Shown piece by piece: positions 4,275-53,040 of a stretch of 64,000 nucleotides of DNA. The notes under the pieces were generated by a model. The model was given only the letters and a program-made list of their open reading frames with translations. It did no database searches and was not told the origin of the DNA. Source of the DNA: Asticcacaulis machinosus. GTDB lineage: Bacteria; Pseudomonadota; Alphaproteobacteria; Caulobacterales; Caulobacteraceae. The stretch covers positions 372,001 through 436,000 of the forward strand of contig NZ_JAQQKV010000002.1 in assembly GCF_028550435.1 (NCBI RefSeq). Direction: 5' to 3'. Position numbers and translations under genes: made by a program. The stretch's first letter is position 1. Each line of letters begins with the position of its first letter.

Positions 4275-5222
4275 ATGACAGAAAAGCTCACTAACGGTGC
4301 GGTGGTATTGGTTACAGGGGGGCGAGGGCTAGTTGGGCGCGCGTTACAAAATCGTCTTGCTGAAGCAAATGTAAAGGTTGTGGCCCCAACCAGTTCGGAA
4401 CTCGATCTAAGAGATCCAAATGCTACTCATGCTTTTTTTCGGGAGGTTTCACCCGATTATGTGTTCCACCTAGCCGCACGAGTGTACGGCATTATGGGCA
4501 ACATCATGAATAAGGGTGTTTCGATCTATGAGAACGTCATGATCAACACCAATGTCATCGAGGGCTCGCGGCTGGCTGGTGTAAAGAAAGTCGTCAGCAT
4601 GGGTTCCGGTTGCGTTTATCCGTACCCACCTCCCGCAGAGCACCTCACGGAAGACATGATCTTCCGGGGAGAGCCACATTCGTCTGAAGATTCCTATGCG
4701 CATTCCAAGCGATTGATGTACGCCATGCAAAAGGCGTATCAGGAGCAATACGGTCTGGACTATGCATTTGTAGTTTCAGGGAACCTTTTCGGGCCACATG
4801 ACAGCTTCGATTTCGAAAGTGGTCATGTTATTCCGTCATTGGTGCATAAGTTCTACAATGCTGCGCGGGAAATGACGCCCATTGTTGCATGGGGCACCGG
4901 AAAGGCGCAGCGAGATTTCACCTACTCTTCAGATGTAGCGGAAGCGCTGACTTTCATTATGGAGGGCGGCCAAGGTGCCATCAACATGGGCTCTGGCCAG
5001 GTTCACAAAATTCATGACATCATCGAATGCTTGGCTGAAGTCAGCGGTATTGGCATGGATGCCGTTCAGTTTGATACGTCCAAACCAGATGGTCAAGAAT
5101 ATCGTTACTACGACGTATCCAAATTGCAAGCTCTTGGTTTCAAGCCCCGCGTGACGCTCGCAGAGGGGCTGCAGAAGACTTATGATTGGTTCGTCAAAAA
5201 CTATGATCAAGCCAGACTATAG
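4275..5222 (+). CDS. NAD(P)-dependent epimerase/reductase, GDP-fucose synthase-like
   Basis: A 315-residue short-chain dehydrogenase of the extended SDR class. The cofactor motif is VTGGRGLVG (about residues 13-21) and the catalytic set is Ser in MGSGCVYP and YAHSK (Tyr-xxx-Lys, about 142-146). The MGSGCVYP segment and the HVIPSLVHKF stretch are typical of GDP-L-fucose synthase (Fcl/WcaG). In the GDP-heptose setting a plausible role is reduction, with or without epimerisation, of a GDP-4-keto-6-deoxy-heptose made by the next gene's product, as in capsule modified-heptose pathways; GDP-fucose synthesis is the alternative. A start at 4275 is supported by AGGAT upstream. Confidence 0.78.
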   Translation: MTEKLTNGAVVLVTGGRGLVGRALQNRLAEANVKVVAPTSSELDLRDPNATHAFFREVSPDYVFHLAARVYGIMGNIMNKGVSIYENVMINTNVIEGSRLAGVKKVVSMGSGCVYPYPPPAEHLTEDMIFRGEPHSSEDSYAHSKRLMYAMQKAYQEQYGLDYAFVVSGNLFGPHDSFDFESGHVIPSLVHKFYNAAREMTPIVAWGTGKAQRDFTYSSDVAEALTFIMEGGQGAINMGSGQVHKIHDIIECLAEVSGIGMDAVQFDTSKPDGQEYRYYDVSKLQALGFKPRVTLAEGLQKTYDWFVKNYDQARL

Positions 5223-5297
5223 TTAGCAAAAACGTCCGTAATTGCCGCGATTTCGCGGCTATAACTGCCATCGGTTAAATATTGGAGACCGAAAGAA

Positions 5298-6317
5298 ATG
5301 AGTTCAAAAGCCAGATGTTTCATTACTGGTATTACCGGCATGGTAGGGTCGCATCTTGTTGATTTCCTGCTTGAGAACACCGACTGGGAGATATATGGCC
5401 TTCTTCGGTGGCGCAGCCCTCTCGATAACATATACCATCTTTTGCCGCGCATAAATGCTAGAGACCGCATCCATCTCATTTATGGCGATCTTCGTGACTC
5501 GCTGTCGATGGACAGTGCCGTTCGCGAAGCAAAGCCGGATTTCGTCTTCCATTTGGCTGCCCAAAGTTTCCCCAAAACGTCATTTGAATCTCCGATTGAA
5601 ACCTACGACACCAATGTCGAGGGCACCGAACGTTTGTTGGCAGCCCTACGCAAGCATGCACCTCAAGCCATAATTCATGTGTGTGCCTCGTCGGAAGTTT
5701 TCGGTCGTGTCCCGAAGGAAAAGTTGCCGATCGACGAAGAGTGCACATTCCATCCAGCCTCCCCTTATGCCATTTCAAAAGTGGGGACGGACCTAATCGG
5801 CCGTTATTACGGTGAGGCTTATGATATGACTGTCATGACGACTCGCATGTTCACCCACACGGGACCGCGCCGTGGTGACGTTTTCGCAGAATCGACCTTC
5901 GCCAAACAAATTGCTATGATCGAGGCCGGGTTAATCCCGGCAGTTGTGAAAACTGGAAATCTGGATTCCCTTCGGACATGGGCTGATGTGCGCGATGCGG
6001 TACGTGGTTATTATATGCTGGTGACCATTAATCCAATCAAGGGTGCCTACTACAATATCGGCGGCTCTTATACGTGTTCAGTCAAGGATATGTTGGATAC
6101 TCTAATCTCGATGTCACCGAAGGCGAACCAGATTTCGGTCGAAATCGATCCGGAAAGATTACGCCCCATCGACGCCGACCTGCAAGTTCCGGACACGCGG
6201 AAGTTCAAAGCTGTAACCGGTTGGGAGCCCACAATTCCCTTTGAGCAAACCATGAGGGATTTGCTCGATTACTGGCGTGACCGTATTAAACAGGGCGGTC
6301 GCTTCCTGACACGATAA
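5298..6317 (+). CDS. GDP-sugar 4,6-dehydratase (GDP-mannose/GDP-heptose dehydratase family)
   Basis: A 339-residue SDR enzyme of the GDP-mannose 4,6-dehydratase family. The Rossmann motif is FITGITGMVGSHL (about residues 8-20); FHLAAQSFPKTSFESP and SSEVFG follow, with YAISK (about 157-161) as the Tyr/Lys pair. The variant sequences around the active site resemble the heptose-active branch (DmhA/WcbK) as I remember it, and the genomic setting with heptose kinase and heptose guanylyltransferase agrees. It would make GDP-6-deoxy-4-keto-heptose, feeding the preceding reductase. GDP-mannose itself remains a possible substrate. The start has GGAGACCG upstream at a suitable distance. Confidence 0.8.
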   Translation: MSSKARCFITGITGMVGSHLVDFLLENTDWEIYGLLRWRSPLDNIYHLLPRINARDRIHLIYGDLRDSLSMDSAVREAKPDFVFHLAAQSFPKTSFESPIETYDTNVEGTERLLAALRKHAPQAIIHVCASSEVFGRVPKEKLPIDEECTFHPASPYAISKVGTDLIGRYYGEAYDMTVMTTRMFTHTGPRRGDVFAESTFAKQIAMIEAGLIPAVVKTGNLDSLRTWADVRDAVRGYYMLVTINPIKGAYYNIGGSYTCSVKDMLDTLISMSPKANQISVEIDPERLRPIDADLQVPDTRKFKAVTGWEPTIPFEQTMRDLLDYWRDRIKQGGRFLTR

Positions 6318-6391
6318 GGTACAATTTATCTCTTGTTTTCCTATCGTTCGAATGGCCCTGGCTTTCGCCTGAGTTCTGAAAAGGTAATAAC

Positions 6392-7630
6392 TTGTCTTAT
6401 CGTGCGCCCGTTCCGGTTAAGCAGTGCTTAATCCTCGTCGGAGGAAAAGGTACGCGCTTGGGTGATCTCACGAAGGGTACACCAAAACCGCTTCTTGAGA
6501 TCAGTCCAGGCCTCAGGTTTCTAGATGTCGTTATCCGAAATATAAGCCGGCAGGGATTTACAGATATTATTCTGTTGGCCGGTTATCTGGGGGAGCGGGT
6601 TTCAGAAATCTACGACGGGCAAACGGTTCTCGGTGCGAAGGTACGGGTTTTTATTGAGACCGAACCGCTCGGAACGGGAGGCGCTATTGCGACGGTCGCC
6701 GATCATCTTGATGAGTGGTTCGTCCTGATGAACGGTGACTCGCTCTTTGATATAAATTTTCGGGATTTCTCGGCAGCTCCACCCACCACCGCCATCGGTC
6801 GGCTAGCCCTTCGCGCGGTCGATGATGCATCCCGTTACGGCAGCGTCGAGTTCGTGGGCGAAAGGATTACCGCGTTTCGGGAAAAGCACGAAAGCATGGG
6901 TGGCTCTGGTTACATTAACGGTGGGATTTATCTGTTAAGTCGAGATGTGTTGGCCTATATTGATGGTGAAACATCGATCGAACGGGATGTTTTTCCGCAG
7001 ATCGTGGCCGAAGGGCGGTTAACCGCTAAGCTCTATCAAGGGTATTTTCTGGATATGGGGCTTACCGACACGTTTGCTCAGGCTCAGCGTGAAATCCCTC
7101 ACTTCCTGGATCGCCCGTGTCTCTTTCTAGACCGTGATGGGGTCATCAATGAAGATAAGGGTTATACCCATCGTCCCGAAGACCTGAAATTCATAAATGG
7201 TGCTCCGGAAGCGATAAAATTTGCCAACGACAATGGCTTCTTCGTTATCGTCGTCACCAATCAGTCAGGTGTCGCGCGCGGACTGTATAGCCTCTGTGAA
7301 GTTGACAAGTTTCATCAGGAAATAAACAGGCGTCTGGCTGCAACCGGAGCTTACATAGATGATTTCTATAACTGTCCTTATCATGAAGACGGGATCGTTC
7401 CCGAATATGCAGTTGCCAATCATCCCGACAGGAAGCCCAATCCGGGCATGATTTTGCGTGCGAAGAGGGACTGGAATATTATCGACGCCCAAAGCTTCAT
7501 GGTCGGTGACAAACCAAGTGATATCGAAGCCGCTGTGGCTGCGGGCATTAAGGGTGTGCTGTTTACAGGGATTGATCTGCAAGGCCTTATAAATAATCAA
7601 ATAAAAATCAGATTAGCGCAGAAGATGTAA
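6392..7630 (+). CDS. Fused heptose 1-phosphate guanylyltransferase and heptose bisphosphate phosphatase
   Basis: A 412-residue two-domain enzyme. Residues 10-230 form a sugar nucleotidyltransferase (LVGGKGTRLGDLTKGTPKPL; MNGDSLFD at 113-120; the metal-binding region near LDMGLTD), matching HddC. Residues 240-400 form a HAD-IIIA phosphatase matching GmhB: LDRDGVIN (246-253), VVTNQSG, RKPNPGM and GDKPSDIEAA. Two consecutive-pathway activities are therefore joined, removing phosphate from C7 and attaching GMP at C1. The phosphatase keeps CPYH, but the second zinc-ligand pair of E. coli GmhB (CDC before RKP) reads HPD here, so zinc binding is doubtful. The start is TTG at 6392 behind GAAAAGGT; no in-frame ATG precedes the GGKGTRL motif. 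Confidence 0.85.
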   Translation: MSYRAPVPVKQCLILVGGKGTRLGDLTKGTPKPLLEISPGLRFLDVVIRNISRQGFTDIILLAGYLGERVSEIYDGQTVLGAKVRVFIETEPLGTGGAIATVADHLDEWFVLMNGDSLFDINFRDFSAAPPTTAIGRLALRAVDDASRYGSVEFVGERITAFREKHESMGGSGYINGGIYLLSRDVLAYIDGETSIERDVFPQIVAEGRLTAKLYQGYFLDMGLTDTFAQAQREIPHFLDRPCLFLDRDGVINEDKGYTHRPEDLKFINGAPEAIKFANDNGFFVIVVTNQSGVARGLYSLCEVDKFHQEINRRLAATGAYIDDFYNCPYHEDGIVPEYAVANHPDRKPNPGMILRAKRDWNIIDAQSFMVGDKPSDIEAAVAAGIKGVLFTGIDLQGLINNQIKIRLAQKM

Positions 7631-8760: not shown

Positions 8761-9388
8761 ACACATCTATCCCTTTTTCTAATGCATCCTCAAACGCCAC
8801 CATGATAGAGTATCAAAGTAAAGCAATTATTCACAGTTACCCACTAGCAGATCTGAACGTGAATATACCGATCTCTCTAGCGCAAATAATTACGATTCTT
8901 TAAAATATTCGGCATTTAAGAAACGTCCGAAGAATTCGCAACCAAAAAAAAATGCGAATTTTAAAATTAAATTCGATGATAAAATCATTGATATATGGAA
9001 AATTTTTAACGTACTTAATTTACTAAACCACACATCTTACTGTGTTTTAATATTTATACAGAATTTAGTCCTCATAAATATATATAACAAATAATTACGT
9101 CAGAAGTATTTTCCATTTCAATGCTCAATATTTATTTTTTGCGCATATTCTCAAGCATGGAACCTTTCCTATCATAGAACCGCCCCCCCTCCTTAAACCA
9201 ATAAATAGGGTGAGGATACTTCCAGTTTTCAGCTGATAGGCTAAGGAGCTAATTCGATTGGATTATACAAGACGCAGCTTCCCTGAGAAATTTAAATCCG
9301 CTTTAGAGAATCTTCCTTTCTATGAAAAATTTCGAGAAACTCTTAAGCTAAATCTTTGCGAATTGAACAATAAACTCAAGAGGAACCC
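8761..9388 (+). other. AT-rich intergenic region with a weak hairpin and a doubtful small reading frame
   Basis: This 628-bp gap is the most AT-rich part of the window. A hairpin with arms at 8933-8940 and 8953-8960 and an A-rich loop is followed by TTTTAAAA and may end the heptose operon. A possible small reading frame starts with TTG at 9258 behind TAAGGAG and runs to 9554, overlapping the next gene by 166 bp; its first 45 codons look protein-like (charged, helical) but the rest is a shadow of the methyltransferase gene. I see no other gene. Confidence 0.45.
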
Positions 9389-11371
9389 ATGCTCGAAGCT
9401 TTACGAACTCGGTTCAACACGCTTTGGCAGACAGATGAAGCCTTTAACGATCCGGGGCATGCGTCTGACGACGCAGAAACTATTTTGCGGGTGGCAGGGC
9501 ATGGGCGTGCACTTGATGTCGGATGCGGCAATGGCAGTCTTGTCCGAGCCTTAATTAGACAGGGAATGGATGCTTTTGGAATTGATATTTCCGATGTAGC
9601 GATTAAACGCAGCGCGCTTTTGACGCCCGACCGTTTCTTTGAAGGTCAAGCACAGGACTTGCCGTTTGAGGACGGCCGGTTTGACGTTGTGTTCTCTCGT
9701 TTTTGCCTGGATGAATTGGATGAGAATGCGCTCACTAAAGCACTAGCCGAGATGAAGCGTGTGTGTAGTGGCCCACTAATCCTTGTCGTGCGTACTTCGG
9801 CCCATGCCAACGCCGACACACTTCCTCGATTCATGGATCGCAACCAATGGGAAGAATACTTACTTGCGGCCAGCTTTCGCAAACATCCAGATCATTACGT
9901 GCTGAACCATTTGCTAAACCTTCATAATGGGATGCCGGAAGCGTTCTTCATAATGGAGCGTGGATTGGAGGACGAAAGCTTCCTATGTATGGCGGGCATT
10001 GAAAGTGATGCTCGCGCCTTCTTGGCGCATCGTGCCGCCCTGTATGTCAGGCCGCATGATGTAGTGGCAGTGGCAGATACAGATGCTGCCACTGCCTATG
10101 TGGTAGCCCGGCGCACCCGCGCTGCCACTGTTATAGCTATTGCAGAAAGAGCACAGGCCGCAATGAAGGCCTATAGCCTGCCTGAACTGCCCCTTCATTT
10201 CACTAACCAAGATGCAAACGTGATAGCTGATACGGCCATCGTATATACATCAAGGAATGTAATAGACGAGCTAATAACTCCGAGGTGGCAACTGACACCG
10301 GGCGGCCGTTTGATCCTTTTCATTTCCGGACGGCCAGATCTTGAGATTGTCTCGGTAGCCTCTTGGAAACTTGAGACTTGGTTGAGTCTGGATGTTCCAG
10401 CTAAAGGGCCACCTCGCATCTTAGACAGACTCCAATCAGAAACCGCCGAAAGACTTTGTGATGAGTGCTTGCATTTTCTGGTGTTTAGCCTGACGCCCTT
10501 TTTCCCCCTTCCCTTAGGACTGGATCGCCAACCTGCTCCCTTTAAGGGCACGCCAATGGAAAATTACCTTAATCCGTGGCTCATGCGCGCTCTTATCGTC
10601 ATTGGTTCCAGGGTGGAAAATGCAGATATTCGCAAAGATTGGGCAAACCATACCCTTGAAACTTTGCCTTGGCAAAGTCCCGATGTCGGCGCCGCTCTGT
10701 GTAACTTAATCTACATGCAGCTAGAAGATGTAGAGATGGACGCTAATCTATTTGAAAAAGCGCGAAATTATCTAACATGTGCGCCGGCGAATACTACTGT
10801 ACTTCGCTGGCAAATTTCCATTGCATACGCTTTGGCACTAAGGAGCCGAAACCACGGGCAATTTTTTGAAATGGAACAGTATCTTGAATATGTTCTCGAT
10901 CGACCCGCGCAAGATTACTCACCTCTTCTGTTGACGAAAACCGTCGGGGCAGCCTTGATGTTAGCTATGCTCCAGTTGGCAACCGGTAGGCAAATTGAAG
11001 CTGCATCATTGCTTGAGAAAACCTACTTTGAAGTGCGGAAGTTGGTCGGCAACGCCTTAGTAGGAAGTAATGAATTGCCGGAAGCCTATGAAACATCCGA
11101 AATTGTTCAAATAATTAACGGATTGGGAGAGATGGCGGCAATGGCTGCTAATCTTCGCCAACGCATTGTCCGCTCAAGTTTATTATATGAACAGAAGCCT
11201 AATTCAATGGAAATAGAGCTTGAAAAATCAAAACAGCAGATCGCCAAAATTTCGGCTGAATTCCAATCTACCATAGATTATCTCGCTAAGGTTACTGAGG
11301 CGCGTGATTTTTTTCAGGGTCTCTATTCCGTGACGGCAGCAAGATTGAAGAGCCTGAATGCGTCTGAGTAA
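9389..11371 (+). CDS. SAM-dependent methyltransferase with large uncharacterised C-terminal part
   Basis: A 660-residue protein. Residues 30-150 are a class I methyltransferase domain: LDVGCGNGS (motif I, about 42-50), GIDIS (motif II), DLPFEDGRFDVVFSRF and a weak motif IV. From about residue 200 to 330 a second Rossmann-like stretch without the glycine-rich loop follows, then an all-helical part and a short coiled coil near residues 610-640 (EIELEKSKQQIAKISAEF). The coiled coil suggests a docking partner. AAGAGGA precedes the ATG. It is the first gene after the AT-rich gap and probably modifies a sugar in the glycan; the methylated substrate is unknown. Confidence 0.75.
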   Translation: MLEALRTRFNTLWQTDEAFNDPGHASDDAETILRVAGHGRALDVGCGNGSLVRALIRQGMDAFGIDISDVAIKRSALLTPDRFFEGQAQDLPFEDGRFDVVFSRFCLDELDENALTKALAEMKRVCSGPLILVVRTSAHANADTLPRFMDRNQWEEYLLAASFRKHPDHYVLNHLLNLHNGMPEAFFIMERGLEDESFLCMAGIESDARAFLAHRAALYVRPHDVVAVADTDAATAYVVARRTRAATVIAIAERAQAAMKAYSLPELPLHFTNQDANVIADTAIVYTSRNVIDELITPRWQLTPGGRLILFISGRPDLEIVSVASWKLETWLSLDVPAKGPPRILDRLQSETAERLCDECLHFLVFSLTPFFPLPLGLDRQPAPFKGTPMENYLNPWLMRALIVIGSRVENADIRKDWANHTLETLPWQSPDVGAALCNLIYMQLEDVEMDANLFEKARNYLTCAPANTTVLRWQISIAYALALRSRNHGQFFEMEQYLEYVLDRPAQDYSPLLLTKTVGAALMLAMLQLATGRQIEAASLLEKTYFEVRKLVGNALVGSNELPEAYETSEIVQIINGLGEMAAMAANLRQRIVRSSLLYEQKPNSMEIELEKSKQQIAKISAEFQSTIDYLAKVTEARDFFQGLYSVTAARLKSLNASE

Positions 11372-11483
11372 AGCGCCTGTTACCGTACTTAGGGTAGCGT
11401 CTTTGGTAGAATCGTTAAGTGTGACCGATGGCTGGGCCAAATCGCCGGGTGAAAATCAGTAAAGAAAGTTGTGAGGATTATTT

Positions 11484-12119
11484 ATGACATTTGACTTCTA
11501 CGCCTCCCTTGGAGAGAACTGCGAAGGAGCCTTTCAGATACGGCGCGTACTTGGCCAAGACGATAGCTGTTTCTTCAGTTGGAATATTACGCCGCCGGCC
11601 GCGTTAATAGCGCTTCTAGACGGTGACTTTCAAGACATTATGCAACCGGAAGCCATGGTGCGCCATTCGACAGATCTGATCCGCGATTCAAAATACAACT
11701 ATATGTTTCATTCTGACTTTCCCAGCGACGAAGATATTAGATTCGGGGAATATCCAGACATTGTAGCGAACCACCAGCAGAAGGCACAATACCTGATTGC
11801 AAAACTTAGGGGCAACGCTGCGGACGAGACTAAAAAGACGGCTTACTTTTATAAAACGCAGGAGCCTGCAGATAAGGAAAAGGCGGTTGAGATGCTTGAA
11901 AGTTTGAAAACATTACACAACAACAACGAGAACTTCGTCCTCGTATTCCTACAACCTGAAGAGAAGGCTGAATCAGACTGGAATATTGCACAACTGAAGA
12001 ACCGCTACCTAAAACGGATAGCGTCATATGCTGACGCCACTGATGGCCATGTGTCCAGCTGGGACAGAATATTCAGCGAATTTCCGCACATAAAACCCTT
12101 ACGGTTGTCGGGTTATTAA
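11484..12119 (+). CDS. DUF1796 (papain-like cysteine peptidase-like) protein
   Basis: A 211-residue protein whose N-terminus (FYASLGENCEGAFQIRRV, then FFSWNITPPAALIALL) fits the DUF1796 family, described as putative papain-like cysteine peptidases. The Cys in LGENCE at residue 14 would be the nucleophile. Members of this family often occur inside polysaccharide gene clusters beside glycosyltransferases, as here. The gene ends inside the last codons of the convergent glycosyltransferase gene, overlapping it by 21 bp. A proteolytic role is not shown; an alternative is that the fold has been adopted for sugar or acyl transfer. Confidence 0.7.
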   Translation: MTFDFYASLGENCEGAFQIRRVLGQDDSCFFSWNITPPAALIALLDGDFQDIMQPEAMVRHSTDLIRDSKYNYMFHSDFPSDEDIRFGEYPDIVANHQQKAQYLIAKLRGNAADETKKTAYFYKTQEPADKEKAVEMLESLKTLHNNNENFVLVFLQPEEKAESDWNIAQLKNRYLKRIASYADATDGHVSSWDRIFSEFPHIKPLRLSGY

Positions 12120-45118: not shown

Positions 45119-46048
45119 TTAGTTTACCGGCGCTAACCAGTTCCACTTGTCCTCGGTCTCGCCGGTGAACAGGCCGTGGAAGCGCTTTTGGATCAGCTTG
45201 GTGACGTCGCCGGGGCCGCCGACGCGGGTCGGTATACCGTCAACCGAGCGGATCGGTGTGACTTCGGCCGCGGTACCGGTCATGAACACTTCGTCGGCCA
45301 GATAGAGCATCTCGCGCGGCAGAACCTGCTCGATGACTTCGATGCCTTCCGCGCGGGCCAGTTGGATCACGGTGTCGCGGGTGATGCCGCCGAGGATCGA
45401 CGCGGCCAGAGGCGGCGTATAGATCTTGCCCTTCTGGATCAGGAACAGGTTTTCACCGGCCCCTTCGGACAGCAGGCCATCACGGCCCAGACCCAGACCT
45501 TCGGCAAAGCCGCGCTCACGGGCTTCATAGCCGATCAGATAGGACGACAGGTAGTTACCGCCCGCCTTAGCGCCGGTCGGAATGGTGTTCGGTGCCGCGC
45601 GGTTCCAGGACGAAACGCAGACATCAACCCCTTTGAGCAAGCCTTCTTCGCCCAGATAGGCGCCCCACGGGAATGCGGCGATGGCGACATCAACCGAGAC
45701 GTTTTCCTTTTTCGGGGTTACACCCATGCCGCATTCGCCCAGGAAAGCGATGGGGCGCAGGTAAGCGCTTTTGAGGTTGTTGGCGCGGACAATTTCGCGG
45801 CAGGCATCGTTGATCTGATCGACCGTATACGGCAGTTGGATATGATAAATCCGGGCCGAGTCGATCAGGCGCTGGGAGTGCTCATTCAGGCGGAAAATAA
45901 CCGGGCCGTTGGGCGTGTCATAGGCGCGCACGCCCTCAAAAACCGAGGTGCCGTAGTGCAGGGCATGGGTCATGACGTGGATAGTGGCGTCTTCCCACGG
46001 GATCAGCTTGCCGTTGAACCAGATCGTATCAGCGAGTTTCTTATTCAT
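45119..46048 (-). CDS. ilvE: Branched-chain amino acid aminotransferase
   Basis: A 309-residue PLP enzyme of fold class IV, the last step for Leu, Ile and Val. WFNGKLIPWEDATIHVMTHALHYGTSVFEG, RLIDSARIYH, the PLP lysine in TGAKAGGNYLSS (about residue 158), LLSEGAGENLF and GITRDTVIQLA are standard. It lies between the acetolactate synthase genes and leuC on the minus strand. Confidence 0.96.
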   Translation of the reverse strand: MNKKLADTIWFNGKLIPWEDATIHVMTHALHYGTSVFEGVRAYDTPNGPVIFRLNEHSQRLIDSARIYHIQLPYTVDQINDACREIVRANNLKSAYLRPIAFLGECGMGVTPKKENVSVDVAIAAFPWGAYLGEEGLLKGVDVCVSSWNRAAPNTIPTGAKAGGNYLSSYLIGYEARERGFAEGLGLGRDGLLSEGAGENLFLIQKGKIYTPPLAASILGGITRDTVIQLARAEGIEVIEQVLPREMLYLADEVFMTGTAAEVTPIRSVDGIPTRVGGPGDVTKLIQKRFHGLFTGETEDKWNWLAPVN

Positions 46049-46237: not shown

Positions 46238-46504
46238 TCAGGCCGTCAATTTCTGAGCGGCGGCGGCTTTGCGCGGTTCGGCTACGCGTTTAAGACCATA
46301 CAGGCGGTCGATCTGCGCGTGCAGGGTTTCAATGCGGCGATGCGATTCCTTTGGGCGGGCCGTTACCGTCAGACCGCGGGTCTTTTCATCGATTGGATAC
46401 ATTTCGATCGCATCGATGAAAAAACCGCGCCGCTCAATGAGGCCCAGAACCCGCAGGAGTGTGCCGTCGAGATCGTCAATCTCAATATGAATCAAGTGGC
46501 TCAT
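46238..46504 (-). CDS. Acetolactate synthase small subunit (short ACT type, IlvM-like)
   Basis: An 88-residue single ACT-domain protein: HLIHIEIDDLDGTLLRVLGLIERRGFFIDAIEMYP and RGLTVTARPKESHRRIETLHAQIDRLYGL. It is half the length of IlvN/IlvH and resembles enterobacterial IlvM. It would bind and stabilise the large subunit; valine feedback through such short subunits is often weak. It overlaps the end of the large-subunit gene by 23 bp, so the pairing is firm. Confidence 0.88.
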   Translation of the reverse strand: MSHLIHIEIDDLDGTLLRVLGLIERRGFFIDAIEMYPIDEKTRGLTVTARPKESHRRIETLHAQIDRLYGLKRVAEPRKAAAAQKLTA

Positions 46505-48170
46505 CCCAACGCTCCTCCATCATTTCCGCATTCGACGCGCCCGGCGGCACCAGCGGCCAGACGTTTTCGCGCGGATCAATCAAAATATGCAACAAGGTCG
46601 GCTTATCCGCCGCCAACAGGCGATCCAGCGCGCCATCGACCTCATCGCGGCTGGTGATACGGAAGGCATCAAGGCCAAAGGCCTGCGCCACCACCACGAA
46701 ATCCGGATTGTCGGAAAGGTCGATTTCCGAATAGTTTTCTTCGTAAAACAGACGCTGCCACTGACGCACCAGCCCCAGGGACGAATTATCCAGCAGGACG
46801 ATCTTCAACGGAATACCGTAACGACGAAGCGTCGCCATTTCCTGAATGTTCATCATGAACGAACCGTCGCCGGACACCGTCACCACATGGTGATCCGGCA
46901 GGGCCAGCTTGGCGCCCAGACCGGCGGGCAGGCCATAGCCCATCGCCCCTGAACCACCTGAGGTCAGATGGGCGCGGTTTTGCAGGAACTGGCAATGCTG
47001 CGCGACCCACATCTGATGCTGACCGACATCGCAGGCGGCGACGAATTTCTCACCGGCCTTTTCAGACAGCAGTTTCAGCAGGGCCGGCGCATAGATGCCG
47101 GTGCCCGGTGCATCATAGCGGAAAGCGTGTTTTTTCTTGTCGGACTTGCACTTGGCGACCCACAGGGAGATGTCCTGCATCTTGGGGTGCAGGCCGTCCA
47201 GAACGGTTTTCAAGTCGCCGACAATACCGACATCGGCTTTACGCAGCTTGTTGATTTCGGCGGCGTCGATATCGACATGAACAATCTTGGCATGGGGCGC
47301 AAAGGCCGACAGCTTACCTGTGGCCCGGTCATCAAAGCGCGCGCCCAGAACGATCAGCAGATCGGAGTCTTGCACGGCAATATTGGCCGCGCGGGTGCCG
47401 TGCATGCCCAACATGCCGAGGAACAGATCATCATTGGTCGGTATAGCCCCCAGCCCCTTCAGGGTCGAGACGACCGGAATACCGGTGCGGTCCATCAGAG
47501 CGCGCAGTTGCGGCACAGCAAAGGCCATTTCGACCCCGCCGCCGATATAGAACAGCGGCTTATGGGCCTGAGAAATCAGTTTCTCGGCGGCCTTGATATC
47601 GGCCTCTTCCGGTTGCGGCGGCTGCCACGACGGGAACTCACCGGTGGTCGGCACGTCCTTGACAAAGGCGGCGGCGACGTCCTTGGGGATATCAACCAGA
47701 ACCGGGCCCGGACGGCCTTCCTGAGCGATCTGGAAGGCGCGCGACAGAATGGCGGGGATTTCCGCGGGATCACGAACCAGCCATGAGTGCTTCACGATCG
47801 GCAGGGTCAGGCCCAGGATATCGACTTCCTGAAAGCCATCGGTGCCCAACAGGTGCGTGCCGACCTGACCGGTAATGCAGACCATCGGCACCGAGTCCAT
47901 ATAGGCGTTAGCGATGCCGGTAATCAGATTGGTGGCGCCGGGACCGGAGGTGGCCATGCAAACGCCGACCTTACCCGTCGCGCGGGCATAGGCATCGGCG
48001 GCAAAGGACGCGCCCTGTTCGTGGCGAACCAGAATGTGCGTGAGGCCGGAGCCTGCCAACGCATCATAGATCGGCATGATCGCCCCGCCGGGATAGCCGA
48101 ACAGGATATCCACGCCGAGAGCCCTCAGCGTCGAAATTACCAATTGTGCTCCGGTCGGTTGGTTTATCAT
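46482..48170 (-). CDS. ilvB: Acetolactate synthase large subunit
   Basis: A 562-residue thiamine-diphosphate enzyme making acetolactate or acetohydroxybutyrate. LFGYPGGAIMPIYDAL, RHEQGASFAADAYARATGKVG (catalytic Glu), SGPGATNLITGIANAY, GARFDDRATGKL (FAD region) and the ThDP motif SGDGSFMMNIQEMATLRRY ... LDNSSLG are present. Size and pairing with a short ACT subunit recall IlvG-IlvM. The symbol is by family. Confidence 0.95.
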   Translation of the reverse strand: MINQPTGAQLVISTLRALGVDILFGYPGGAIMPIYDALAGSGLTHILVRHEQGASFAADAYARATGKVGVCMATSGPGATNLITGIANAYMDSVPMVCITGQVGTHLLGTDGFQEVDILGLTLPIVKHSWLVRDPAEIPAILSRAFQIAQEGRPGPVLVDIPKDVAAAFVKDVPTTGEFPSWQPPQPEEADIKAAEKLISQAHKPLFYIGGGVEMAFAVPQLRALMDRTGIPVVSTLKGLGAIPTNDDLFLGMLGMHGTRAANIAVQDSDLLIVLGARFDDRATGKLSAFAPHAKIVHVDIDAAEINKLRKADVGIVGDLKTVLDGLHPKMQDISLWVAKCKSDKKKHAFRYDAPGTGIYAPALLKLLSEKAGEKFVAACDVGQHQMWVAQHCQFLQNRAHLTSGGSGAMGYGLPAGLGAKLALPDHHVVTVSGDGSFMMNIQEMATLRRYGIPLKIVLLDNSSLGLVRQWQRLFYEENYSEIDLSDNPDFVVVAQAFGLDAFRITSRDEVDGALDRLLAADKPTLLHILIDPRENVWPLVPPGASNAEMMEERWDEPLDSY

Positions 48171-48192
48171 GACTTAACTCTCTAAAATTAGA

Positions 48193-48346
48193 ACCTCCCC
48201 TCTTGGAGGGGAGGGGAACCGCAAGCCCGCTCCTGTGCGGGCTATGCGGTGGTGGGGTAAATCCACAAGCGCGAGCCTGGGAGGCTACCCCCTCTGACAT
48301 CAAAATCAGATTTTAATGTCAGCTCCCCCTGCAACAGGGGGAGTTC
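48193..48346. repeat. Palindromic repeat, copy C (ilvC-ilvB gap)
   Basis: About 150 bp with paired blocks: CCTCCCC with GGGGAGG, AGCCCGC with GCGGGCT, CTGACAT with ATGTCAG and CCCCCTG with CAGGGGG. The sequence differs in detail from copies A and B but has the same building plan and occupies the same kind of position, a gap inside the operon. Confidence 0.65.
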
Positions 48347-48352
48347 TTTTAG

Positions 48353-49354
48353 TTAGCCGTTGCCCTTATCCTGCAACCAAGACATGCGCGAACGCAGGTC
48401 ACGGCCGGTGTGCTCGATCGGGTGATCCAGATCCTGACGCATCAGAGCGGTGTAGCGCGGACGGCCGGCCATGTTCTCAAGAATCCAGTCGCGGGCAAAA
48501 TCGCCGGACTGAATGTCGTTGAGGACTTCCTGCATACGCTCACGGGTTTCTTCGTTGATGATGCGCGGGCCGGAAACCAGATCGCCGTACTTACAGGTCT
48601 CGGACACGAACGAGTGCATCTTGGCGAAACCGCCTTCGTACAGCAGGTCAACGATCAGCTTCAGTTCGTGCAGAACTTCAAAGTAAGCGATTTCCGGACG
48701 GTAACCGGCTTCGACCAGGGTTTCAAAGCCCATCAGAACCAGCTCGGTCGTGCCACCGCACAGAACGGCCTGTTCACCGAACAGATCGGTTTCGGTTTCT
48801 TCCTTGAAGGTCGTCTCGATAACGCCACCAACGGTGCCGCCGATGCCACGGGCATAGCCCAGAGCACGTTGAGCGGCCTTGCCGGTCACATCGCGATCAA
48901 CGGCGAACAGCGACGGCACGCCGCGGCCACGTTGATATTCACGGCGCACGAGATCGCCCGGGCCCTTCGGCGCCACCAGAATAACGTCGAGGTCGGCACG
49001 GGCATCGACGCGGCCGTAGAGGACCGAGAAGCCGTGGGCGAAAAGGATCGACGCGCCCTTAGCGGCGTAAGGGGCGATGTCATTGGTGTAGATTTCGGCA
49101 TGGCTCATGTCCGGCGTCAGGATGGCGATGATGGTCGCGTCCTTAACGGCATCCTTGATTTCTGCGGTCGGCAGACCGTCATGCTTGGCCTTTTCATAGC
49201 CAGCGCCGCCGGTGCGCACGCCGACGATGACGTCAACGCCGGAATCGCGCAGGTTCTGGGCGTGAGCGCGGCCTTGTGAGCCGTAGCCAACGATGGCGAC
49301 GCGTTCGCCCTTCAAGCTGTCGGCGGAAACGTCGTCATTAGTATAGATTTTCAC
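48353..49354 (-). CDS. ilvC: Ketol-acid reductoisomerase
   Basis: A 333-residue class I enzyme of valine and isoleucine synthesis. [22 protein letters not shown] is the NADPH site, with [45 protein letters not shown] and [12 protein letters not shown]. The start is GTG at 49354 (KIYTNDD follows) with CAGGAGTA upstream; an in-frame start at 49393 adds a sequence outside the family. The IlvD-domain gene lies 93 bp upstream. Confidence 0.96.
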
Positions 49355-49447: not shown

Positions 49448-50029
49448 TTAAGAGGCCGCGGTCATAACACGTGCATATTTTTCAAGCGCCGGATGGCCCT
49501 GATAGCCACGGGCCGGGGCCGTGAAGCTGGATTTACGGCCGGACAAGTCCGCCGCAGTGTCGATACGGCGCGATGCAGCATCGATGGTGATGATGTCACC
49601 GTCGCGCAAACGACCGATAGCGCCACCCGCCTGCGCCGCCGGGGCACAGTTGCCAACGATCATGGCGTGCGAGGTCGAACCTGCGATATGGCCGTCGCTG
49701 ATCAGGGCGATGCCGGTGATGCCGGACTGCTCAATGGCGTCAACGATATCGCGCAGATCGGTTTTGTGGCGAATGATGATGGCGGTGCCGGACGCGATCT
49801 CACCGGCGCGGATAGCGGCAATGGCCGTCATCTCGTCCTCGAAAACGCGGGCAGCACCTTCGAAGCGCTCACCAAAGCCCGACAGCTTCAGAATGCCGCC
49901 GACCGGGGCAATGCTGCCATGAAGAATCGCAAAGCCTGACGATACTACCGCTTGGGCAACCGTAAGCGGCGCCGTCATAAAGACAGTGGCTTCGGTGGCG
50001 GTCGGGGTCATCTTGATTTGCGCGTTCAT
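49448..50029 (-). CDS. Stand-alone IlvD/Edd C-terminal-domain-like protein
   Basis: A 193-residue protein aligned over most of its length with the C-terminal swivel domain of dihydroxy-acid dehydratase. AILHGSIAPVGGILKLSG matches the domain entry, FEGAARVFEDEMTAIAAI matches [11 protein letters not shown]-type sequence in the full IlvD at 50671, and LISDGHIAGSTSHAMIVGN matches [18 protein letters not shown]. The catalytic Ser and the Arg of GRFSG are replaced (GHIAG), and the iron-sulfur domain is absent, so dehydratase activity is not expected. It is the first structural gene behind the leader peptide and attenuator and 93 bp ahead of ilvC. The ATG at 50029 has GAAGAG upstream. Confidence 0.8.
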   Translation of the reverse strand: MNAQIKMTPTATEATVFMTAPLTVAQAVVSSGFAILHGSIAPVGGILKLSGFGERFEGAARVFEDEMTAIAAIRAGEIASGTAIIIRHKTDLRDIVDAIEQSGITGIALISDGHIAGSTSHAMIVGNCAPAAQAGGAIGRLRDGDIITIDAASRRIDTAADLSGRKSSFTAPARGYQGHPALEKYARVMTAAS

Positions 50030-50068: not shown

Positions 50069-50098
50069 AAAAATCCCCGCTTCCGGGGGCGGAGCGGG
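50069..50098 (-). terminator. Attenuator terminator of the ilv-leu operon
   Basis: On the minus strand CCCGCTCC and GGAAGCGGGG form a GC-rich hairpin followed by ATTTTTG. It lies 40 bases after the leader-peptide stop and 40 bases before the first structural gene, the classical attenuator position. Confidence 0.72.
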
Positions 50099-50138
50099 AG
50101 ACTGATTTAGGCCATTGATTTGGTCTGAAACCGTGTGG

Positions 50139-50670: not shown

Positions 50671-52536
50671 ATGCCTGCCTATCGTTCCCGCACCACCACT
50701 TTTGGCCGCAATATGGCAGGCGCACGCGCGCTATGGCGGGCGACCGGTATGACCGATTCTGATTTCACCAAGCCGATTATCGCGGTCGTCAACTCCTTCA
50801 CCCAGTTCGTGCCGGGCCATGTGCATCTGAAAGACCTGGGGCAAATGGTGGCGCGTGAGATCGAAAAAGCGGGCGGCGTCGCCAAGGAATTCAACACCAT
50901 CGCGGTCGATGACGGTATCGCTATGGGCCACGGCGGCATGCTCTATTCCCTGCCCTCACGCGACCTGATCGCTGACAGCGTCGAATATATGGTCAATGCC
51001 CACTGCGCCGACGCGATGGTCTGTATCTCCAACTGCGATAAGATCACGCCGGGAATGCTGATGGCCGCCATGCGCCTCAATATTCCGGCTGTATTCGTCT
51101 CCGGCGGGCCGATGGAAGCCGGTAAGGTCGTGTGGCCCGATAAGGACGGGGTGGCTAAAACCCACGCGCTTGATCTGGTCGATGCGATGGTGCAGGCCGC
51201 CGATGACAATATCTCGGACGCGCAGGTCAAGGCCGTCGAAGAAGCCGCGTGTCCTACCTGCGGGTCGTGTTCGGGCATGTTCACCGCCAATTCGATGAAC
51301 TGCCTGACTGAGGCATTAGGATTATCGCTCCCCGGCAACGGTACGGTTCTGGCCACCCACTCAGACCGCGAGCGCCTGTTTAAAAATGTCGGTCAGATGA
51401 TCGTCGATATCACCAAGCGCTATTATGAAGGCAATGACGAGTCGGTCTTGCCGCGCTCGATTGCCTCCTATGCGGCGTTTGAAAACGCCATGCGCCTTGA
51501 TGTGGCGATGGGTGGGTCGACCAACACGGTTCTGCACCTGCTGGCGGCGGCGTCCGAAGCCGGTGTCAATTTCAAGATGGCTGATATCGACCGGATTTCG
51601 CGCACCACGCCGTGCCTGTGTAAGGTGGCACCGGCTACGTCAGATGTGCATATCGAAGATGTTCACCGCGCCGGCGGCATCATGTCGATCCTCGGCGAAC
51701 TGGCGCGTGGTGGCTTGTTGAACACGGAATTGCCGACAGTGCATTCCCCGACACTGGGCCATGCGCTGGCCTATTGGGATATCCGGGTCACCAATGACGA
51801 AGAGGTCGATACCTTCTTCAAGGCCGCCCCCGGTGGCGTGCGCACCACTCAGGCGTTCTCGCAATCCAAGCGCTGGCCGGACCTCGATAAAGACCGCGAA
51901 AAGGGCGTCATCCGCTCGGTCGAGCACGCCTTTACCAAGGACGGCGGGTTGGCGGTGCTCTACGGCAATATCGCCGAAAAAGGCTGCATCGTGAAAACGG
52001 CGGGGGTCGATGAATCGATCTGGAAGTTCTCTGGCCGCGCCCGGGTGTTTGAATCTCAGGAAGACTCGGTTGACGCCATCCTGAAGAACCAGATCAAGGA
52101 GGGCGATGTCGTCGTCATCCGTTATGAGGGCCCCAAGGGCGGGCCGGGTATGCAGGAAATGTTGTACCCGACCTCCTACCTCAAATCCAAGGGCATGGGT
52201 AAGGTGTGTGCGCTTCTGACCGACGGGCGTTTCTCCGGCGGCACGTCCGGCCTTTCCATCGGTCACGTCAGCCCGGAAGCGGGCGAAGGTGGGGCGATCG
52301 CCCTGGTCGAAGAAGGCGATACCATCGACATCGATATCCCCAACCGCACCATTGATCTGCGCGTGACTATGGAAGAACTGGCCCATCGTCGCGCCAAGGA
52401 AGAAGCCCGTGGCCAGGAGGCCTTTACGCCCAAGAACCGCGAGCGCTATGTGTCGGCGGCCTTGCAAGCCTATGCAGCCCTGACCACCTCAGCCGACACC
52501 GGCGCCGTGCGCGATTTGAGCCAGTTGAAGCGGTAA
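50671..52536 (+). CDS. ilvD: Dihydroxy-acid dehydratase
   Basis: A 621-residue iron-sulfur enzyme for the common Val/Ile/Leu step. [55 protein letters not shown] (cluster Cys), [36 protein letters not shown] and [23 protein letters not shown] (catalytic Ser) are all intact. It is transcribed away from the rest of the ilv-leu operon. Length is in the usual range. Confidence 0.97.
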
Positions 52537-52542
52537 GTTAAT

Positions 52543-52593
52543 CCCTCCCCTAATTTTAGGGGAGGTACGCCCAAAGGGCGGGGTGGGGTTAAA
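52543..52593. repeat. Left inverted-repeat element flanking the DUF559 gene
   Basis: A 51-bp element: hairpin CCCCTAATTTTAGGGG, then GGTACGCCC, AAAGGGCG and GGGTGGGGTTAAA. It is the inverted counterpart of the element at 52984-53040 with about four differences. Two of these, at the base of the hairpin loop, are compensatory (A-T here, G-C there). Confidence 0.88.
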
Positions 52594-52622
52594 TTTTGCG
52601 CTGATACCTGTTATTTAACCTC

Positions 52623-52988
52623 ATGGTCGCCCAACCCCAACGCCAATTCGCGCGTAAACTCCGCCAAGATATGTCCCTGCCTGAGCGCTTGATCTGGAGC
52701 CGGATCAAGACGCGGCAAGAAGGCTTGCCCGCCTTTAAGCGGCAGTATCCGTTCGGCCCTTATGTGTTCGATTTTTACTGCGCCAAGGTAAAGTTAGTCA
52801 TCGAGATTGACGGTATGGCGCACAGCATAGGCGACCGTCCCGAACGCGATCAAATAAGAGACGATTTCCTGCGGGAACGCGGCTTTGATATCATGCGCAT
52901 CAATGCTCATGACATACTTGCCGATGTGGATGAAGCCGCCGATGGCATTTATCGGTATGTAACGGCCAGACTGAGCGGAACACTTTAA
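52623..52988 (+). CDS. DUF559 endonuclease-like protein
   Basis: A 121-residue protein of the DUF559 family, related to very-short-patch-repair and PD-(D/E)XK nucleases. LRQDMSLPERLIWSRIKTRQ, FKRQYPFGPYVFDFYC (Asp of the active site) and KLVIEIDGMAH (E-x-D) are the family marks. It stands alone, and its stop codon lies inside the right flanking repeat. The substrate is unknown. Frequent association of such genes with palindromic repeats in related genomes is my impression, not something checked. Confidence 0.88.
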   Translation: MVAQPQRQFARKLRQDMSLPERLIWSRIKTRQEGLPAFKRQYPFGPYVFDFYCAKVKLVIEIDGMAHSIGDRPERDQIRDDFLRERGFDIMRINAHDILADVDEAADGIYRYVTARLSGTL

Positions 52989-53040
52989 CCCCACCCCGCC
53001 CTCTGGGCGTACCTCCCCTGAAATCAGGGGAGGGGTTTAA
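52984..53040. repeat. Right inverted-repeat element flanking the DUF559 gene
   Basis: Inverted counterpart of 52543-52593, with hairpin CCCCTGAAATCAGGGG and the GGGCGTACC and CCCCACCCCGCCC segments. It supplies the TAA stop of the nuclease gene at 52986-52988. Confidence 0.88.

Follow-up and report, generated by a model that had tools for sequence, protein, structure and literature searches.

A stand-alone IlvD C-terminal domain at the head of the ilvC-ilvB-ilvN operon in Asticcacaulis, very probably a remnant of the operon's own ilvD

The window analyzed here, a stretch of 64,000 nucleotides from Asticcacaulis machinosus (positions 372,001 to 436,000 of contig NZ_JAQQKV010000002.1, assembly GCF_028550435.1), contains an operon for branched-chain amino acid synthesis in which a leader, a terminator, a small stand-alone gene, ilvC, ilvB, ilvN and ilvE follow one another, with a divergent full-length ilvD (Table 1). 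The start of ilvC (GTG at 49354) lies 93 nt downstream of the stand-alone gene, and the start of ilvD (50671) is 641 bp from that of the stand-alone gene. The acetohydroxyacid synthase small subunit has one ACT domain and is fast-evolving, its omega being near that of the stand-alone gene in some clades. In the relatives read, ilvN and ilvE are separated by a LeuA-like (2-isopropylmalate synthase-like) gene (L041, 2870-4453; L055, 2884-4485), which the window lacks at this place. An ORF of 121 aa (52623-52988, +), whose product we take to resemble a DUF559-type endonuclease, lies between inverted copies of a GGGGAGGTACGCCC-type repeat at 52541-52600 and 52984-53040; a similar repeat stretch is found at 48191-48350, between ilvB and ilvC.

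Table 1. Features of the operon and of the divergent ilvD in the window
Feature	Position	Strand	Evidence
Leader ORF, GTG start, 44 aa, VTKAIAIAMDKTEGRKALAMSLVSLVSIVSLLIVGVVRPMIAEW, Ile/Leu/Val control codons	50139..50273	-	Counterpart leaders in 25/25 genomes
Attenuator terminator, CTCCCGCTCC...GGAAGCGGGGATTTTT, ends 39 nt before the ATG of the stand-alone gene	50069..50101	-	Hairpin and T-run
Stand-alone IlvD C-terminal domain gene	49448..50029	-	Pfam, BLASTP, AlphaFold2, orthologues in 25/25 Asticcacaulis genomes
ilvC, ketol-acid reductoisomerase, GTG start with AGGAG	48353..49354	-	Pfam KARI_N and KARI_C
ilvB, acetohydroxyacid synthase large subunit	46482..48170	-	Pfam TPP enzyme domains
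ilvN, 88-aa ACT-domain small subunit	46238..46504	-	Pfam ACT_5
ilvE-like class IV aminotransferase	45119..46048	-	Pfam Aminotran_4
Divergent full-length ilvD, 621 aa, NF009103/PRK12448 type	50671..52536	+	NF009103, 1171 bits (cut-off 710)

An L/I/V-rich leader is present in the matching position in all 25 Asticcacaulis genomes, and 24 of them carry a hairpin/T-run terminator matching that of the window. Genus-wide, the leader peptide ends in RPMxxEW or a close variant and is followed by a conserved CTCCCGCTCC..GCGGG terminator. An Rfam search of the leader region returned no RNA family, and the stability of the region as a whole fold is not unusual (z -1.13); the assignment as an attenuator is therefore based on the leader ORF, the hairpin with its T-run and their conservation. 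In Caulobacter crescentus, the acetohydroxyacid synthase operon ilvBN is controlled by an attenuator consisting of an Ile/Val-rich leader peptide and a terminator, as in the window operon, whereas no IlvD-derived gene between leader and operon is described in the portion of the source drawn on here (PMC4117421, citing Tarleton et al. 1994).

The stand-alone ORF starts with ATG and encodes a protein of 193 aa, in which a short N-terminal tail modelled with low confidence (residues 1-32) precedes a swivelling beta-barrel domain (residues 33-193). Its sole Pfam domain is ILV_EDD_C (PF24877), matched with 100.9 bits (gathering cut-off 27.7 bits) over profile positions 13-187 of 191, which makes the protein a member of this domain family; Pfam gives no match to ILVD_EDD_N (PF00920) in it. 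Against the curated full-length IlvD models TIGR00110, NF002068 and NF009103 it scores 91.8, 96.7 and 60.4 bits, all below the respective cut-offs of 618, 644 and 710 bits. BLASTP aligns it with residues 426-608 of the neighbouring IlvD (32% identity, E 1e-21), far beyond chance. The initial annotation, which had recognized a stand-alone IlvD C-terminal domain between leader and ilvC, with GRFSG of IlvD replaced by GHIAG and the cluster-binding domain missing, is borne out on each of these points; in addition, the EGPKGGPGM loop that precedes the Mg2+-ligand Glu of the dihydroxy-acid dehydratase (DHAD) family (AtDHAD Glu463, PMC9543379) is deleted, and this Glu is replaced by Asp in the window protein. 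Judged by the full-length models, the N-terminal domain and the catalytic residues, the protein is a non-dehydratase, as the initial annotation had also supposed in suggesting a function other than dehydration for a gene kept under the control of the operon. In the literature searched, we found no account of this gene in Asticcacaulis, nor of any stand-alone IlvD C-domain.

Comparison of the alignment columns of the 25 orthologues with those of 16 order-level IlvDs reveals which parts of the enzyme have been kept. Columns invariant in the enzyme but drifting in the stand-alone protein include the catalytic Ser (A 14, G 8, S 2 and T 1 among the 25 orthologues), the Mg2+-ligand Glu (E 9, D 7, G 6 and A 3), the GPKGGPGM loop, Lys48, Glu66, His127, Glu131 and the C-terminal SKGAVT tail. 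Retained are the fold glycines, V62-F63, I138, D145, R154, D157, D161 and Y185, and F33, I35, H37 and F52 are invariant in the orthologues but not in the enzyme; a strongly conserved pocket is absent from the orthologues. The AlphaFold2 model, with block means of pLDDT of 89-98 over residues 31-170, superposes at Z 21-23 on the C-terminal barrel of the ~560-aa IlvD type (NF002068/PRK00911; 6OVT, 6NTE and AtDHAD 5ZE4/8HS0), at 32-38% identity; unlike these enzymes, the protein has no N-terminal [2Fe-2S]/Mg2+ domain, with its Fe-S cysteines and Asp/carbamylated Lys Mg2+ site, and has lost the SKGAVT tail. The barrel core is kept while the catalytic residues have drifted. Ligand binding, one of the functions first suggested for the protein, is unlikely at the old active site because the drifted residues are those of that site.

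An intact stand-alone gene is found at the same place in each of the 25 Asticcacaulis genomes examined, within a genus-wide order of leader, stand-alone gene, ilvC, ilvB, ilvN, (leuA) and ilvE, with ilvD divergent. In all 25 genomes 29-118 nt separate the gene from ilvC, with no overlap, whereas the distance to ilvD is variable, an esterase-like gene, or an esterase-like gene plus a transposase gene, intervening in some genomes; the gene is therefore tied to ilvC rather than to ilvD. At locus L057 (genome G022) an IS-type transposase gene (9019-10134) lies between the operon and ilvD. At L053 (G018) ilvB and ilvD both look frameshifted (4750-6433 and 10085-11948), probably through sequencing error, and the stand-alone gene is intact. 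Outside the genus, a profile search covering 398 genomes from the order and 289 from the class yielded no stand-alone copy among the matches listed, which are only full-length IlvDs or shortened frames (contig ends likely); these searches report best matches, and the statement applies to the matches listed and not to very divergent copies.

The position of the gene has a counterpart in the outgroups. In 11 of the outgroup loci read, from other families of the order and from the sister genus g3 within the same family, the gene directly upstream of ilvC-ilvB(-ilvN), where the stand-alone gene lies in Asticcacaulis, encodes a full-length IlvD of ~560 aa. In most of these operons ilvD is preceded by an Ile/Leu/Val-rich leader and, at 36-48 nt, by a hairpin/T-run terminator. 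The stand-alone gene follows its terminator at the same spacing (34-52 nt) in the clade of the window and in several other clades, and at 57-69 nt in the remaining genomes. Leaders of a similar kind are found ahead of full-length ilvD in other families (outgroup loci L153-L164). The closest relatives of the stand-alone protein are ~560-aa IlvDs of other lineages (40-48% identity), not the neighbouring 621-aa IlvD, and an RRIDxxAD stretch and a 3-residue gap are common to it and the operon-encoded ~560-aa IlvDs but missing from the neighbouring IlvD and from other IlvDs. In the tree, the stand-alone genes form one clade (99/98) whose nearest row by path is an order-level 560-type IlvD, the 620-aa type being on a separate starred branch; the tree carries a warning of long branches meeting and does not resolve the branching point among the 560-type IlvDs. 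The window IlvC is 67-69% identical to the IlvC of the outgroup ilvD-ilvC operons and 52-54% identical to that of the genera g7, g12, g24 and g25 of its own family, and a GxxVVR stretch before the barrel in several orthologues resembles GQQVV, with which the inter-domain linker of full-length IlvD ends. The stand-alone gene is thus very probably the C-terminal part of the operon's own ~560-aa-type ilvD. Its simplest history, as suggested by arrangement and spacing, is probably an in-frame internal deletion in the ancestor of the genus; no intermediate state of such a deletion was found among the genomes examined.

The stand-alone protein diverges fast, with 35-47% identity across the genus; IlvC and IlvD show 82-90% outside the closest species. 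Nevertheless, omega is about 0.02-0.26 over all the close pairs compared. The group medians for the stand-alone gene are 0.12-0.19; those of ilvC are 0.03-0.05, and ilvN, the gene of the regulatory subunit, has 0.04-0.20. The N-terminal 32 residues evolve faster than the rest in most pairs. Synonymous divergence (dS) is as high as in the neighbouring genes, indicating that the constraint acts on the protein and not on an RNA or DNA element. The initial annotation had called for a search for conserved members next to ilvC and had named absence or decay in relatives, or a recent truncation with stop codons, as findings that would count against it; presence in 25/25 genomes together with the omega values means that neither was encountered. 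It is quite likely that the gene has a function at the protein level.

Several explanations other than a maintained partner protein have to be weighed against these data. The loss of catalytic residues and the origin as a fragment of a larger gene would suit a neutral relic or pseudogene awaiting loss, but the selection tests contradict this and leave it next to no probability: the frame is open in every genome, whereas a neutral simulation for one lineage leaves 2.5% of ORFs open at 0.45 substitutions per site, dN/dS is far below 1 (Fisher tests on single pairs, p 1e-10 to 1e-18), indels among the orthologues are in frame, and stops, frameshifts or an omega near 1 are seen in none of the 25. 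Duplication of the C-terminal part of the ilvD that lies 640 bp away, the origin that the initial annotation implied, would account for the proximity and for the BLASTP similarity to that IlvD; it is highly improbable given the higher identity to the 560-type IlvDs, the placement in the tree and the shared motif and gap, and the neighbouring IlvD, although of the same C-terminal domain family, is a full catalytic protein of another subtype and another ancestry. Stand-alone swivelling domains of two-subunit dehydratases do exist, namely LeuD and the AcnX small subunit, and by analogy with them (a LeuD-type structure, 3VBA, is a weak Foldseek match) the domain could pair in trans with an N-terminal Fe-S domain made separately. 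LeuD and the AcnX small subunit, however, work with a separate large catalytic subunit, while no gene for a solo N-terminal domain was found in the genome of A. machinosus or in 11 relatives. PF00920 matches number exactly four in each of these genomes and lie in full-length genes, apart from one clearly split frame in G018, a probable frameshift; such a split dehydratase is therefore excluded in practice, and across the orthologues neither the base Ser nor the Mg2+-ligand Glu is conserved.

A role as a degenerate C-domain copy that joins, stabilizes or inhibits heteromers of the divergent 620-aa IlvD is quite unlikely. The protein belongs to the domain family of IlvD, and DHAD-family enzymes are oligomeric, being dimers or tetramers (PMC5770437), but the tight dimer interface of the family comes mostly from the N-terminal domain (PMC5770437), the DHAD-invariant residues that the protein has lost belong to the active-site cleft and to the loop facing the N-domain, and the gene travels with ilvC rather than with ilvD. 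The main rival, to which we assign a low probability, is a translated spacer: translation of the ORF after the attenuator would couple RNA polymerase and ribosomes, avoiding Rho polarity, and would set the expression of ilvC-ilvB, so that the product need only fold harmlessly. The invariable location right after the terminator and right before ilvC, the fast divergence and the drifted catalytic residues are all in keeping with such a role, and avoidance of misfolding alone could give an omega below 1. Against it stand the omega of about 0.08-0.18 within the domain over many close pairs, with invariant core residues, and the arrangement of ilvC, which has its own Shine-Dalgarno sequence at a non-overlapping distance; moreover, a short untranslated gap would serve equally well, yet the ORF has been lost in no genome. 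On balance, a regulator or partner appears somewhat more probable than a spacer.

We propose, as a reasonably likely overall explanation, that the remnant of the operon ilvD is kept as a non-catalytic pseudoenzyme partner that tunes a pathway enzyme. The ancestor of Asticcacaulis would have had an operon of the form leader-attenuator-ilvD(560 aa)-ilvC-ilvB-ilvN, from which an in-frame internal deletion would have removed the Fe-S/Mg2+ N-terminal domain, leaving the start region and the C-terminal swivelling barrel in place. The 620-aa-type ilvD beside the operon would have taken over the dehydratase reaction, and the remnant would thereafter have been maintained by purifying selection as a folded, non-catalytic protein. 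As the Ile/Leu/Val-rich leader would stall ribosomes at amino-acid shortage, the protein is expected to be made along with IlvC, IlvB and IlvN, its synthesis rising as under attenuation of the Caulobacter ilvBN kind (PMC4117421). Most likely it would bind a pathway enzyme and tune its activity, stability or assembly, probably via a surface that the C-domain of the ancestral IlvD already had; as cleft residues are lost, binding of a substrate is disfavoured, and so is docking on IlvD as a surrogate C-domain. The partner could be acetohydroxyacid synthase or IlvC, or alternatively IlvD itself; a search for a partner by rate correlation gave a weak excess with IlvB (partial r 0.42, from non-independent pairs). 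RraA, a stand-alone protein of swivelling-domain fold that acts as a protein inhibitor, resembles the model of the remnant (Z 9.4 over 109 residues, 11% identity) and, as a non-catalytic binder, may serve by analogy as a model for how the remnant works, although the two have no sequence relationship, RraA has no ilv linkage and the Z score is near the range of a common arrangement. More tentatively, this genus-specific pseudoenzyme, itself under attenuation control, might now serve branched-chain amino acid synthesis as a new regulatory or structural subunit (e.g. of acetohydroxyacid synthase or ketol-acid reductoisomerase).

Genes of this kind may be labelled dihydroxy-acid dehydratase in annotations although their products are unable to be one. 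The locus offers a natural case of an enzyme gene deprived of its catalytic half within its operon, whose other half has been kept by selection for the whole age of the genus; both the earlier state, with a full-length ilvD at the corresponding site of relatives, and the later one can be read. Should the remnant have a partner, it would show how a metabolic enzyme can become a regulator of the pathway it belonged to, and a contact of IlvD with other pathway enzymes, older than the loss, may come to light.
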